The position numbers and the translations under genes are program-made. The notes beneath the pieces were generated by a model. The model worked only from the letters and a program-made list of their open reading frames with translations. It made no database searches and had not been told where the DNA came from. DNA of 64,000 nt from Pseudarthrobacter phenanthrenivorans (GTDB lineage Bacteria; Actinomycetota; Actinomycetes; Actinomycetales; Micrococcaceae): positions 1 through 64,000 of the forward strand of contig NZ_JWTB01000021.1 of NCBI RefSeq assembly GCF_000813845.1, in the 5' to 3' direction. Shown piece by piece: positions 10,046 to 19,399 of this stretch; the first letter of the stretch is position 1; every line of letters begins with the position of its first letter.

Positions 10046-10086
10046 AGTGGCCGGCCTCCGCCAGCGGGGGCCGGCCACTGCTTTTT
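10046..10086 (+). terminator. Rho-independent terminator of guaA
   Basis: Perfect 11-bp stem AGTGGCCGGCC (10046-10056) with its complement at 10069-10079, a 12-base loop, then CTTTTT. It starts 8 bases after the guaA stop. Confidence 0.85.
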
Positions 10087-10168: not shown

Positions 10169-13100
10169 ATGCCGGTATGGTCCAGGGCGTCACGTGCAAA
10201 CGCAGAAAAGAAGGCAGAAGTGTCAGTTGGTCAAGGCCACCCGGAAGGCTCGGAAGAGCTTCGTAAATGGCTGTCCGGGCTCAAACCGGTCACCGGCGCG
10301 GACACGATGCTGCGCTTTACCAAGACCCCCGAAGGTTCCATCGACCTCACCTCGGCCCACCCCTCCGGGCTTGCCCAGCTCATGGCCGGGCGCCGTACCC
10401 GACTGTCCACGCTGATCCGGGACCGGCAGCAGTATGTCGTGGCGGCACGGGCATCGCGGAACATCCGGTCCAAGATCTTTGAACTTGCCAACGACCGCGG
10501 CATCGATGCCGGCTACCTGTCCGCAGGCACCGTGGTGTGGACGTCCGCCGTCGGGGGCAAACCTCAGCGCGTATCCGCCCCGGTGATGCTGACCGCCATC
10601 TCCCTCACCGTCCGCCCGGGCGAGGACGACTTCGAACTTCAGCTCACCGAGCAGGCACACATCAACCCCGCGCTGGTGCGGCACCTGAAGAACATCCACG
10701 GCATTGTCTTCGACGTCAACGCCGTCACCCGCCTTGCCTACAGCACGGCGCGGTTCGACCCCCAGCCCGTCCTGGACCGGCTGGCCACCCTGATCCGGCC
10801 CATCCACGGGGCCGAAACCCAGCACAACCTGCTGGTTTCCACCTTCGCGGACCTCTCCGGCAACCTCGACGATCCCTGGATCAACGACTCGCATCCCATC
10901 GTCTCCGCCCTCGCCACCGCGGCCGGCGGCGAAATGGTGGACGTGCAGGACCCGGACCCGTCCCGCTTCCCGCACCTGGACAACAGGCACCCAAAGGATG
11001 AGCTCCTCCTCCTGGACGCCGACGCGGACCAGCAGTATGTGATTGATGCTGCCCGTGCCGGCGACTCCCTGGTGGTCAGCACCCCGCCAGGTACCGGCCA
11101 GACCCAGACCGCCATCAACACCATCGGCGCATTGGTGGACGCCGGGAAGACCGTGCTGGTGGTGGGGGACCGCCGCGCCAGCCTGAACGAAGTATCCGGA
11201 CACCTGGAGACCCTGGGGCTGGAGTCCATCCTGTTCCAGCTCTCCGGCAACGTTTCCGCCCAGCAGCTGAAGGGCCAACTGGTCCGGGCCATCGTCCGCA
11301 ACGAAAAGTCGCTGGAGCCGCAGCTCGGGAACCTGCATGCCACCCTGACCGAGCACCGGCATGCGCTCATGGACCATGTGGCGTCGCTCCACAACGTCCG
11401 GGAGCGGTGGGGCTGCTCGCCGTACCAGGCCATGCAGTCACTGGCCGAGCTCACGTCCATCCATCCCGCGCCGGCAACCACCGTCCGGCTCAAGCGGAGC
11501 GTCCTGGACAACATCCGTGACCGTGAGGAGCTGGCCGGCAGGCTTCGGCGCGCCGCGGAATTGGGCAGTTTCAGCAAAGCGGCCACCACCAGCCCCTGGC
11601 ACGGTGCCCGGCTGCTGACCCGCAAGGAAACGGAGGAAGCCCAGGACCTGGTCCGGTCCGTGGCGAAAAGCCTTCCTGCCCTGCGCGACCGTATGCAGGC
11701 AGTGGCCGAGCATGCGGAGATCCGCCTGGGCGAGTCGTTCGCCGAGTGGGGTGAGCAGCTGGAACTGCTCGTGGCCGTTCGCGGCAGCCTGGACAAATTC
11801 ACCCCGGACATCTTCGACCGGCCGGTCACGGACCTGATCTCCGCCACGGCCCCGTCCGCCTGGCGCCGCGAACGCGGCATCGAATTGACGGCCATGCAGC
11901 GCTCCCGGCTTCGCCGGGTGGCGAAGGAATACGTCCGCCCCGGCGTGCACATCGCGGACCTGCACTCGTCGCTGGTCCTGGTCCAGGAGCAGCGGGCCCT
12001 GTGGGCAGGGTACGCCACCACCCAGCGGCACCCCGCGGTTCCATCCGGCCTGGCCGAAATGAACGCCATGTACCGGTCCCTGGACCGCGAGCTGGCGCAG
12101 CTCGGCGAGGCCCTGCGGCACACGGAAGACGGCGGATCCCTGGCAACCGTTCCCTACGCCCGGCTGATGGAGCGGCTGGAGCGGCTGGTGGCGGATACCG
12201 ACACCCTCAAGACCCTGCCCGAGCGGACGCTCCTTATCGAGAACATGCGCGAACACGGACTCGGTGAACTGCTCGATGACCTCGCGGAGCGGGAAGTTCC
12301 GGAAGGATCCGTCGCCGCAGAACTCGAACTTGCCTGGTGGCAGTCCGCCCTCGAAGCCATGATCAGCGGCGACGACTACCTGGCCATGTCCGACGGCGAG
12401 GCCCTGCGCCAGCTCGAGGCCGAGTACCGGCTGGCCGACAACGCCCACATCGCCAGCGGTGCCGCCCGGCTTCGGTGGGACCTGGCTGAACGGTGGCGCA
12501 GTGCCATTGCCGCCCAGCCCCGCCAGGCGGACCTCCTGCGCAGCCTGCTGAAGGACGGACGGGTCTCGTTGCCGGCCCTCACCGCGCAGGCACCTGACCT
12601 GATCGGCAGCCTGGTTCCGGTCTGGTCCGTCAGCCCGTACCTGATGACGGGCCTGCTGCCCGCGGAGCAGCACTTCGATGCCGTCGTGATCCTCGACGCC
12701 GAGGCGACCTCCCTGCAGGCAGTCCTGCCCTCGATTGCCCGCGCCCGGCAGGTCATCGCCTTCGGCGATTCCCGCATCGCCACGCCACGGACATTCACGG
12801 TTGGGGTGGAACGGCTCGCGCCCGGCGAATCGGCGCACCACCGTGTGGAGAGCGCTTTCACCGCGCTCTCCGCCGTGCTGCCGGTGTGGCGGCTCAACGT
12901 GGTGTACCGCGCGGTGGACGAAGACCTTGTCCTCCAACTAAGCAAGAACATCTACGACGGTGGCCTGCGCCGGCTGCCGGAAGGCCAGTCCGCGACCGGG
13001 CTGGACCGCTCCCTGTTGGTGGAGTACCTTCCTGACGGCACGGGGCTTCCCAGCGCCGACCACGAAGGCGTGGAATCCGTGGTGGCCGAGGTCAACCGCG

Positions 13101-14581
13101 TCGTGGAACTGGTTTTCGAGCACGCGCGCATGCGCCCGCGGACGTCCCTCGCCGTGGTTACCGCCAGCCTGCGCCACGCCGCGCGGATCGGCGAGTCCAT
13201 CCGGCTCCAGCTGTCCAACCAGCCGGGCCTGGCCGGATTCTTCGGCGCCGGCCCGGAGTCCTTCCGGGTGGTCGACCTGGAAAGGGCTCAGGGACTGGTC
13301 CGCGACCACGTCATTTTCTCGCCGGGATTCGGGCGGACCCCGCACGGCCGGGCGCTGCACAACTTCGGGCCGCTCTCCGCGGAAGGAGGCAGGGAGAAAT
13401 TCGCGCTGGCCATGACCCGCGCACGCCGTTCCATGCACGTGCTGACCTGCTTCCGTCCCGAGGACCTGGACCACACCCGGCTCACCCACGGCGCGGTGGA
13501 CCTGTACACGCTGCTGGACCGGGAGATTTCCGGCAACACCGACCTGGGTACCCCCGCGTCCCGGGCGGCCGCCAGCGAACAGGCACTGGGGGCAGATCCG
13601 TTGGTCGCGGACTTGGGCGACCGGCTGCGGGCCCGCGGGGCGAGGGTCTGGCACCAGTACGACGGCGCCATCGACGTTGTTGCCGCCGCCGACCCCCTCA
13701 ACACCATGGGCCAGGACGAGTCCGACCTTCCACGGCCCGTAGCCATTGAGTCCGACGGCACTGCGCAGTACCGCACCATGAGCGTGCGTGAACGGAGCCG
13801 GCTGCGGCCTCAACTGCTGGAGCGGCTGGGGTGGCGCTATATGCCGCTCTGGACCATCGAGGTCTTCACCGATCCTTCGTCCTGCGCGGACCGTATCGCC
13901 GGCTACCTTGGGCTGGAAAAGATGGTGTTGCCGGCCAGGACCACGCCCTCTGCAGGATTCCTTGACGATGACTTCGACCAGGCGTTCCATGGAATGGCCG
14001 CTTCTGCGCCGGGTGGTGTTTCCTACCTGCCCAGCGACGACCGCGGCGATGACAGCGGAAACCGGCAGGACGCCGGCGGGAACGGGCACCAGGCAGGAAC
14101 GGACGCCGCCGGCACCGGTTTCGGCCGGAACGGGCAGGGACGCCGCGCCAGTGCCCCGGACAACAGGGAAACGGCCTCCACGGCCGGTGACTCCCCAACA
14201 GGAAACAGCGGGCCGGAGGGAGACCTGGCCGTGAACGGGATCAGCGGAGGACACGTGCGCGAGGAAGATCCGCGCCGCAACGGCAACGGGATGAACGGCA
14301 ACGCTGTGGACGGCAGCGGGATGAACGGCAACGCTGTGGACGAAAACAGCGTAAACGGCAACGCTGCGAACGACAGCGGGACCGCGGAACCTGAAACCCA
14401 GGGTGACGCAGCTGGCGCCGCGAAGCCGGCTTCGGACGGGCCTGCCGCCCGGACGACGAAGGCCGGCACCGGGGACCTCCTTCCGACCAAGGCCGCCGAG
14501 GACGACGCCCGCAGCTGGGGTGACCGGGACGATGACCACGACGCCTGGTTGAAGGAACAGCGGCCGCCGCACTGGGGCTAA
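10169..14581 (+). CDS. Large SF1 helicase-like protein with altered ATPase motifs
   Basis: A 1470-residue protein with the layout of DNA2/COG1112-type SF1 helicases. The Walker A equivalent (residues 304-314) reads STPPGTGQTQT: Gln311 replaces the essential Lys, and the first Gly is Thr. The Walker B equivalent reads VILDAEAT (Asp843, Ala844) instead of a DE pair. Motif III reads GDSRI, without the usual Gln. Motif VI is well kept, ALAMTRARRSM (1080-1090), as is the VDLERAQGLVRDHVIFS region. Residues about 1130-1260 resemble the restriction-endonuclease-fold domain at the end of such helicases, with Asp1169 and Glu1194 as possible catalytic acids and RERSRLRPQLLERLGW. The last 200 residues are Gly/Asn/Asp-rich and disordered, with 10-residue repeats. 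It probably kept the fold but lost or changed ATP hydrolysis. Start by -10 box; a GTG at 10220 with AAGAAGG upstream is an alternative. Confidence 0.8.
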   Translation: MPVWSRASRANAEKKAEVSVGQGHPEGSEELRKWLSGLKPVTGADTMLRFTKTPEGSIDLTSAHPSGLAQLMAGRRTRLSTLIRDRQQYVVAARASRNIRSKIFELANDRGIDAGYLSAGTVVWTSAVGGKPQRVSAPVMLTAISLTVRPGEDDFELQLTEQAHINPALVRHLKNIHGIVFDVNAVTRLAYSTARFDPQPVLDRLATLIRPIHGAETQHNLLVSTFADLSGNLDDPWINDSHPIVSALATAAGGEMVDVQDPDPSRFPHLDNRHPKDELLLLDADADQQYVIDAARAGDSLVVSTPPGTGQTQTAINTIGALVDAGKTVLVVGDRRASLNEVSGHLETLGLESILFQLSGNVSAQQLKGQLVRAIVRNEKSLEPQLGNLHATLTEHRHALMDHVASLHNVRERWGCSPYQAMQSLAELTSIHPAPATTVRLKRSVLDNIRDREELAGRLRRAAELGSFSKAATTSPWHGARLLTRKETEEAQDLVRSVAKSLPALRDRMQAVAEHAEIRLGESFAEWGEQLELLVAVRGSLDKFTPDIFDRPVTDLISATAPSAWRRERGIELTAMQRSRLRRVAKEYVRPGVHIADLHSSLVLVQEQRALWAGYATTQRHPAVPSGLAEMNAMYRSLDRELAQLGEALRHTEDGGSLATVPYARLMERLERLVADTDTLKTLPERTLLIENMREHGLGELLDDLAEREVPEGSVAAELELAWWQSALEAMISGDDYLAMSDGEALRQLEAEYRLADNAHIASGAARLRWDLAERWRSAIAAQPRQADLLRSLLKDGRVSLPALTAQAPDLIGSLVPVWSVSPYLMTGLLPAEQHFDAVVILDAEATSLQAVLPSIARARQVIAFGDSRIATPRTFTVGVERLAPGESAHHRVESAFTALSAVLPVWRLNVVYRAVDEDLVLQLSKNIYDGGLRRLPEGQSATGLDRSLLVEYLPDGTGLPSADHEGVESVVAEVNRVVELVFEHARMRPRTSLAVVTASLRHAARIGESIRLQLSNQPGLAGFFGAGPESFRVVDLERAQGLVRDHVIFSPGFGRTPHGRALHNFGPLSAEGGREKFALAMTRARRSMHVLTCFRPEDLDHTRLTHGAVDLYTLLDREISGNTDLGTPASRAAASEQALGADPLVADLGDRLRARGARVWHQYDGAIDVVAAADPLNTMGQDESDLPRPVAIESDGTAQYRTMSVRERSRLRPQLLERLGWRYMPLWTIEVFTDPSSCADRIAGYLGLEKMVLPARTTPSAGFLDDDFDQAFHGMAASAPGGVSYLPSDDRGDDSGNRQDAGGNGHQAGTDAAGTGFGRNGQGRRASAPDNRETASTAGDSPTGNSGPEGDLAVNGISGGHVREEDPRRNGNGMNGNAVDGSGMNGNAVDENSVNGNAANDSGTAEPETQGDAAGAAKPASDGPAARTTKAGTGDLLPTKAAEDDARSWGDRDDDHDAWLKEQRPPHWG
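14288..14377 (+). repeat. Three 30-bp tandem repeats in the helicase-like gene
   Basis: Copies at 14288-14317, 14318-14347 and 14348-14377. The first two share 24 consecutive identical bases; the third is diverged. They encode GMNGNAVDGS, GMNGNAVDEN and SVNGNAANDS in the disordered C-terminal tail. Confidence 0.85.
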
Positions 14582-19326: not shown

Positions 19327-19399
19327 GGGGCTATAGCTCAGTTGGTAGAGCGCTTCGTTCGCATCGAAGAGGTCAGGAGTTCGAATCTCCTTAGCTCCA
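19327..19399 (+). tRNA. tRNA-Ala (anticodon CGC)
   Basis: A complete cloverleaf of 73 bases: acceptor GGGGCTA paired with TAGCTCC, D-stem GCTC/GAGC, anticodon stem CTTCG/CGAAG with loop TTCGCAT, variable AGGTC, and T-stem AGGAG/CTCCT with loop TTCGAAT. The anticodon is CGC, reading GCG. The third acceptor pair is G3-U70, the identity element for alanyl-tRNA synthetase. CCA is not encoded. Confidence 0.97.

Follow-up and report, generated by a model that had tools for sequence, protein, structure and literature searches.

The gene downstream of guaA in the window, the whole 64,000-nucleotide stretch of Pseudarthrobacter phenanthrenivorans DNA that we analyzed, probably encodes a pseudohelicase, in which a UPF1-like SF1B fold without ATP hydrolysis is joined to a Vsr-type nuclease-like domain and would act as an ATP-free scaffold whose motor was lost in place. 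The phosphate-binding, Mg-binding and catalytic residues are replaced throughout the clade, and the rest of the protein is strongly conserved. Judging from its sequence, the protein is most likely an ATP-independent nucleic-acid-binding scaffold or nuclease that descends from a ProA/Hhe-like helicase-nuclease, where we infer both the loss of ATPase activity and the binding. The layout of the gene and its surroundings is given in Table 1.

Table 1. Position and state of the features of the putative pseudohelicase-nuclease gene, in window coordinates.
Feature	Coordinates	Strand	Details
Terminator-like hairpin, guaA-gene interval	10046..10079	+	GC-rich, 15-bp stem, T tail
Putative pseudohelicase-nuclease gene	10169..14581	+	1470 aa, downstream of guaA
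N-terminal DUF4011-type region	10253..10996	+	approximately residues 29-276; Pfam match and conservation
Degenerate Walker A LVVSTPPGTGQTQTAI	11069..11116	+	residues 301-316; Lys replaced by Gln311, Thr312 kept
Mostly helical long segment between motifs I and II	11117..12631	+	approximately residues 317-821; model and conservation
Degenerate Walker B FDAVVILDAEATS	12674..12712	+	residues 836-848; Asp replaced by Leu842, Glu by Asp843; ungapped alignment
Degenerate motif III GDSRI	12764..12778	+	residues 866-870; Gln replaced by Ile870
Motif IV YR	12905..12910	+	Tyr913-Arg914; Arg retained in 113/113 orthologs
Family signature TPHGRALH	13337..13360	+	residues 1057-1064
Motif VI TRAR	13415..13426	+	residues 1083-1086; Arg1084 and Arg1086 retained, 113/113
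MTES_1575/Vsr-type nuclease-like domain	13613..13909	+	approximately residues 1149-1247; D1169, E1194, D1196; Pfam and conservation
Variable Gly/Asn-rich tail	13946..14578	+	residues 1260-1470; weak constraint by dN/dS

The motor motifs were compared across 113 close orthologs from Arthrobacter-like bacteria (104 distinct sequences; pairwise identity 79% at the median and 55% at the minimum). Residues 304-314 read STPPGTGQTQT, and the position of the Lys that an SF1B helicase carries in Walker A is occupied by Gln311 in every one of these orthologs. The Asp-Glu pair of Walker B is equally absent, since residue 842 is Leu, Ile or Val and residue 843 is Asp in 113/113. The register of this motif is set by relatives with intact motifs, which read FDVVVFDEASQ: F836 and the motif III Gly are spaced by exactly 31 residues, gap-free, in all relatives compared, and the intact FDVVVF-D-E-A-S lies ungapped over FDAVVI-L842-D843-A844-E845, so that Leu842 takes the place of Asp and Asp843 that of Glu, and Ala844 corresponds to the unaltered Ala in 'DEAS'. 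The Gln of motif III is replaced by Ile, Leu, Thr or Val (residue 870, 113/113). The motif IV and VI arginines typical of SF1B helicases (R914, R1084 and R1086) are invariant among the 113, as are T312, Q313, D843 and D1196, the P-loop residues G308, G310 and T314, and Q288 of the Q motif; 309 of the 1222 core columns do not vary at all. Since the Lys, Asp, Glu and motif III Gln are all substituted, it is very unlikely that the protein hydrolyzes ATP productively.

An earlier, sequence-only reading of this DNA had reported the exchange of the Walker A Lys for Gln311, a motif III of GDSRI without Gln, a 1470-residue frame without frameshift, and the retention of motif VI and a nuclease-like C-terminal domain, and all of these observations are borne out; the open reading frame contains no internal stop. 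Its description of Walker B as Asp843-Ala844 was right that the Asp-Glu pair is lost but set the register one position off. Fixation across the clade, which it had proposed as a check, holds for Gln311 and for the missing Walker B pair in 113/113 orthologs, with one exception seen in the same family, the locus L152 from a 2.0-Mb genome, whose P-loop has decayed further to AAPGTEPLRTA. The opposite case, in which close homologs carry Lys and the window protein a lone point change, did not occur.

That the helicase fold is kept, as also proposed earlier, is supported by an AlphaFold2 model (residues 50-1247, 34 rows in the alignment, pLDDT 87), which matches IGHMBP2 (Z 20.9, rmsd 4.8 over 480), Dna2 (Z 20.4), UPF1 (Z 19.6) and senataxin (Z 19.5). 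A search of the sequence against solved structures returned no match. The predicted architecture is an SF1B fold of the UPF1/IGHMBP2 kind joined to a nuclease-like domain of the Vsr/MTES_1575 type, and because this fold comes without its catalytic residues, the name 'ATP-dependent helicase' should not be applied to it. The best matches in family libraries are PDC-S37 (E 1e-109) and ProA (7e-103), and Hhe is matched as well (4e-48 in NCBIfam; 8e-40). The curated NCBIfam cut-offs for ProA and Hhe are missed by far (345.4 bits against 1500, and 163.9 against 2000), and by such thresholds the protein lies outside ProA/Hhe, as a divergent relative. Intact-motif relatives score much above the window protein with these models, reaching about 800 bits for ProA, and they also match Pfam AAA_11 and AAA_12. 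Neither of these Pfam families is matched by the two fully degenerate relatives tested, and the window protein matches AAA_11 only at E 0.04.

Outside the motor motifs, the DUF4011 (Pfam) match at residues 93-173 scores 22.3 bits vs a cut-off of 22.2, and the region around it carries the family-specific conserved residues H64, P65, G67, R84 and N166. Within the long segment between motifs I and II, W477, R578, L602 and G697 are kept in all or nearly all family members sampled. The signature TPHGRALH is mostly TPHGRVLH elsewhere in the order and is missing from Hhe-type relatives. In the variable tail, a 30-bp tandem repeat of 3.4 copies (14280-14381) encodes a Met-Asn-Gly-Asn-rich stretch. The nuclease-like domain matches MTES_1575 (Pfam) with E 1.3e-7 and 32.1 bits, under the curated cut-off of 38.2, with its key acids present. 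Asp1169 and Glu1194, the nuclease residues singled out earlier, are indeed present and mostly kept (E1194 in 112/113), but D1169 is Asn in 16 of the 113 orthologs, and D1196, found in all of them, is as constant or more so. Many sister families of the order have no nuclease acids. In Hhe-type relatives with intact ATPase motifs (L053-L058), VLLDG or VMLDG replaces IECDG, which means that the Glu of this motif (E1194) is not conserved even among intact relatives of that type. One ortholog, L061 (G030), has a frame break near residue 1144 that separates the helicase part from the nuclease part; as the genome is of lower quality, the break may have arisen in assembly, or the two parts may be naturally separate.

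Relatives display the motor in several states. The Walker A Lys is intact in six of those sampled (L166, L167, L196, L198, L200 and L210) and in the Hhe-type outgroup. In other relatives the PPGTG frame persists but the Lys is exchanged for Ala, Gly, His, Leu, Val or Arg. A further, large clade is without a P-loop (GADVAGT, RNGVSSA) and in most cases also without the nuclease acids and the Arg of motif VI: of the 26 rows that have no P-loop, 22 are missing the nuclease ExD and R1084 as well, a count that contains only three phylogenetically independent pairs. On a tree built with the motif columns removed, the Lys forms are basal and parsimony requires 4 changes between Lys and non-Lys; an alternative tree that unites all Lys-less rows in a single clade is not significantly worse (AU test, p 0.27). 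Motor loss in place is thus supported, and how many times it happened independently is uncertain. Conserved columns common to every state, among them H64, P65, G67, N166, W477, R578, L602 and G697, are located mainly outside the ATPase motifs. The definition of a pseudohelicase used for D. radiodurans PriA has a sequence half, active-helicase ancestry with clade-wide catalytic loss, and a biochemical half, absent ATPase activity with retained nucleic-acid binding. Ancestry is indicated here by the intact-Lys relatives and the Hhe-type outgroup and catalytic loss by all close orthologs, so that the sequence half applies.

The gene is widespread and under constraint. Its core, P-loop and nuclease regions included, evolves with a dN/dS of 0.03-0.12 in the nearer pairs (guaA, for comparison, 0.01-0.08), and the tail beyond residue 1260 is under far weaker constraint (mostly 0.25-0.75); in distant pairs synonymous sites are near saturation, hence dN/dS is only rough. 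Among relatives, all 59 of 59 genomes searched have an ortholog. Across the order it is present in 116 of the 119 genomes sampled (113/114 of good quality), and related sequences occur in 16/60 genomes class-wide, in a sample that includes members of the order, and in 4/60 phylum-wide.

Directly 5' of the gene lies guaA in all 80 named loci of the window's family, which come from Arthrobacter, Pseudarthrobacter, Paenarthrobacter and Sinomonas-like bacteria; among 60 loci of the order this adjacency occurs in 4 and is confined to that family. Other families have, downstream and on the opposite strand, a gene that we take to be 5-formyltetrahydrofolate cyclo-ligase-like (27/60 loci), and genes that we read as galU (15) or GNAT (19) also recur in these 60 order loci. 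Of the intact-Lys relatives, L198 and L200 lie upstream of the presumed galU, L200 with the presumed cyclo-ligase as well, and the gene order of the window matches the cyclo-ligase-galU-GNAT arrangement of the other families. These recurring neighbors across the order point to vertical inheritance at one chromosomal place, unlike a defense island. A mobile defense gene finds little support, with one distant match of 30% coverage in 50,697 phage records; plasmid matches are mostly distant DUF4011/DUF3320 proteins. A guaA operon as the functional link was rejected because the adjacency is family-confined and a terminator-like hairpin separates the two genes. This hairpin is one of 3 found vs 2.4 expected, and its stem is by far the longest; with its T tail, it suggests that guaA transcription may end there and that the pseudohelicase gene may have its own promoter. 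L120 and L106, whose records bear the titles Sporosarcina beigongshangi and Acidobacteria MAG, contain a guaA-linked ortholog of 62-68% identity, as is typical of Arthrobacter relatives, and these titles may reflect misclassification or contamination. The sole Rfam match in the window is a tRNA gene at 19327-19399.

We propose that the ancestor was an ATP-dependent helicase-nuclease resembling the ProA/Hhe antiphage proteins, and that it would have become a core gene of the order with its motor lost in place. The helicase domains could now form a static nucleic-acid clamp or a partner-binding scaffold that positions the C-terminal domain, which perhaps still cuts in the window's family and not in other families of the order. 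The earlier suggestion of DNA, RNA or partner binding that needs no ATP cycling is supported by the clade-wide motif loss and the low dN/dS of the core, and its alternative of another chemistry received no support. A counterpoint is that the altered P-loop is invariant in the clade, not drifting, and it may keep a ligand-related role. Mainly because of this invariance we retain a second explanation, in which the protein still binds a nucleotide, does not hydrolyze it, and is switched by it between an open and a closed clamp. The constancy of G308, G310, Q311, T312, Q313, T314, Q288 and the three arginines across 113 orthologs is more than a pocket without a role predicts. On the other side, Leu842 and Asp843 have replaced the Walker B Asp and Glu, neither the Lys nor the motif III Gln survives, and other lineages drop the pocket entirely; we regard such a switch as unlikely.

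The protein might instead be an active, ATP-free antiphage or foreign-DNA nuclease, like a pared-down ProA/Hhe protein. Its two best library matches are defense proteins and D1169, E1194 and D1196 are kept in most orthologs, but a near-universal core gene with stable neighbors is unlike defense genes, the score is far below the curated cut-off (345 vs 1500 bits), and the Asn at D1169 in some orthologs and the many sister families without nuclease acids also make this quite improbable. Continued ATP hydrolysis, with unusual residues substituting, has the retained fold, Thr312 and arginines in its favor, and Asp843 could in principle coordinate Mg from its shifted position; we nevertheless consider it highly improbable, since four catalytic positions are replaced together and the milder change of Lys to Arg alone abolishes the activity of E. 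coli PriA (PMC4504706). Although motif loss is frequent in pseudogenes, a decaying gene is ruled out by a dN/dS far below 1 and full-length open frames in nearly all orthologs, and a sequencing error or lone mutation by Gln311 in 113/113 records, so that neither is credible.

The preferred reading, a helicase fold that works without ATP, can be set beside several known systems. The window protein shares with ProA (NF058533), PDC-S37 and Hhe the order of a DUF4011 region, a split SF1 helicase and a putative MTES_1575/Vsr-type nuclease domain; it differs from them in being shorter, in falling below the NCBIfam cut-offs, in its lost ATPase motifs and in its own TPHGRVLH signature, and whereas those are scattered accessory genes, this is a core gene in a fixed place. 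Literature searches on ProA and PDC-S37 turned up no account of a mechanism. With UPF1, IGHMBP2 and Dna2 the protein shares the predicted fold (Z ~19-21), but its motifs I-III are disabled, its helical motif I-II segment is very long and it ends in a Vsr-type nuclease-like domain. PriA is an SF2 helicase. In Deinococcus radiodurans, PriA is a natural pseudohelicase by measurement that retains DNA binding, and it too is a bacterial helicase that has been retained although its Walker residues are gone from a whole clade (PMC4504706). It differs in being a replication-restart protein of an unrelated family with a known partner, and its loss of activity, which is only probable here, was measured. 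In RecC and AddB, dead SF1 helicase domains have been turned to reading nucleic acid next to a nuclease (PMC4824097), and in RecC the nuclease domain is inactivated too (PMC1185551); both are UvrD-like and subunits of break-processing complexes, a membership that we do not claim for the window protein, and the likeness concerns only the way they work. By analogy with D. radiodurans PriA, RecC and AddB, we infer an ATP-free scaffold.

Tentatively, we suggest that a defense-type helicase-nuclease was domesticated as an order-wide core nucleic-acid reader and that the motor was then taken apart at that place, perhaps more than once, which would leave a graded series from intact enzyme to inactive scaffold at one locus. 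Naturally dead helicases are known singly, whereas here a near-universal gene of an order spans the range from an intact motor to its complete loss, and comparison of its orthologs makes an ATP-free helicase role directly testable. For DUF4011, ProA or PDC-S37 matches in these bacteria, the score alone is insufficient to call an active helicase or a defense system.
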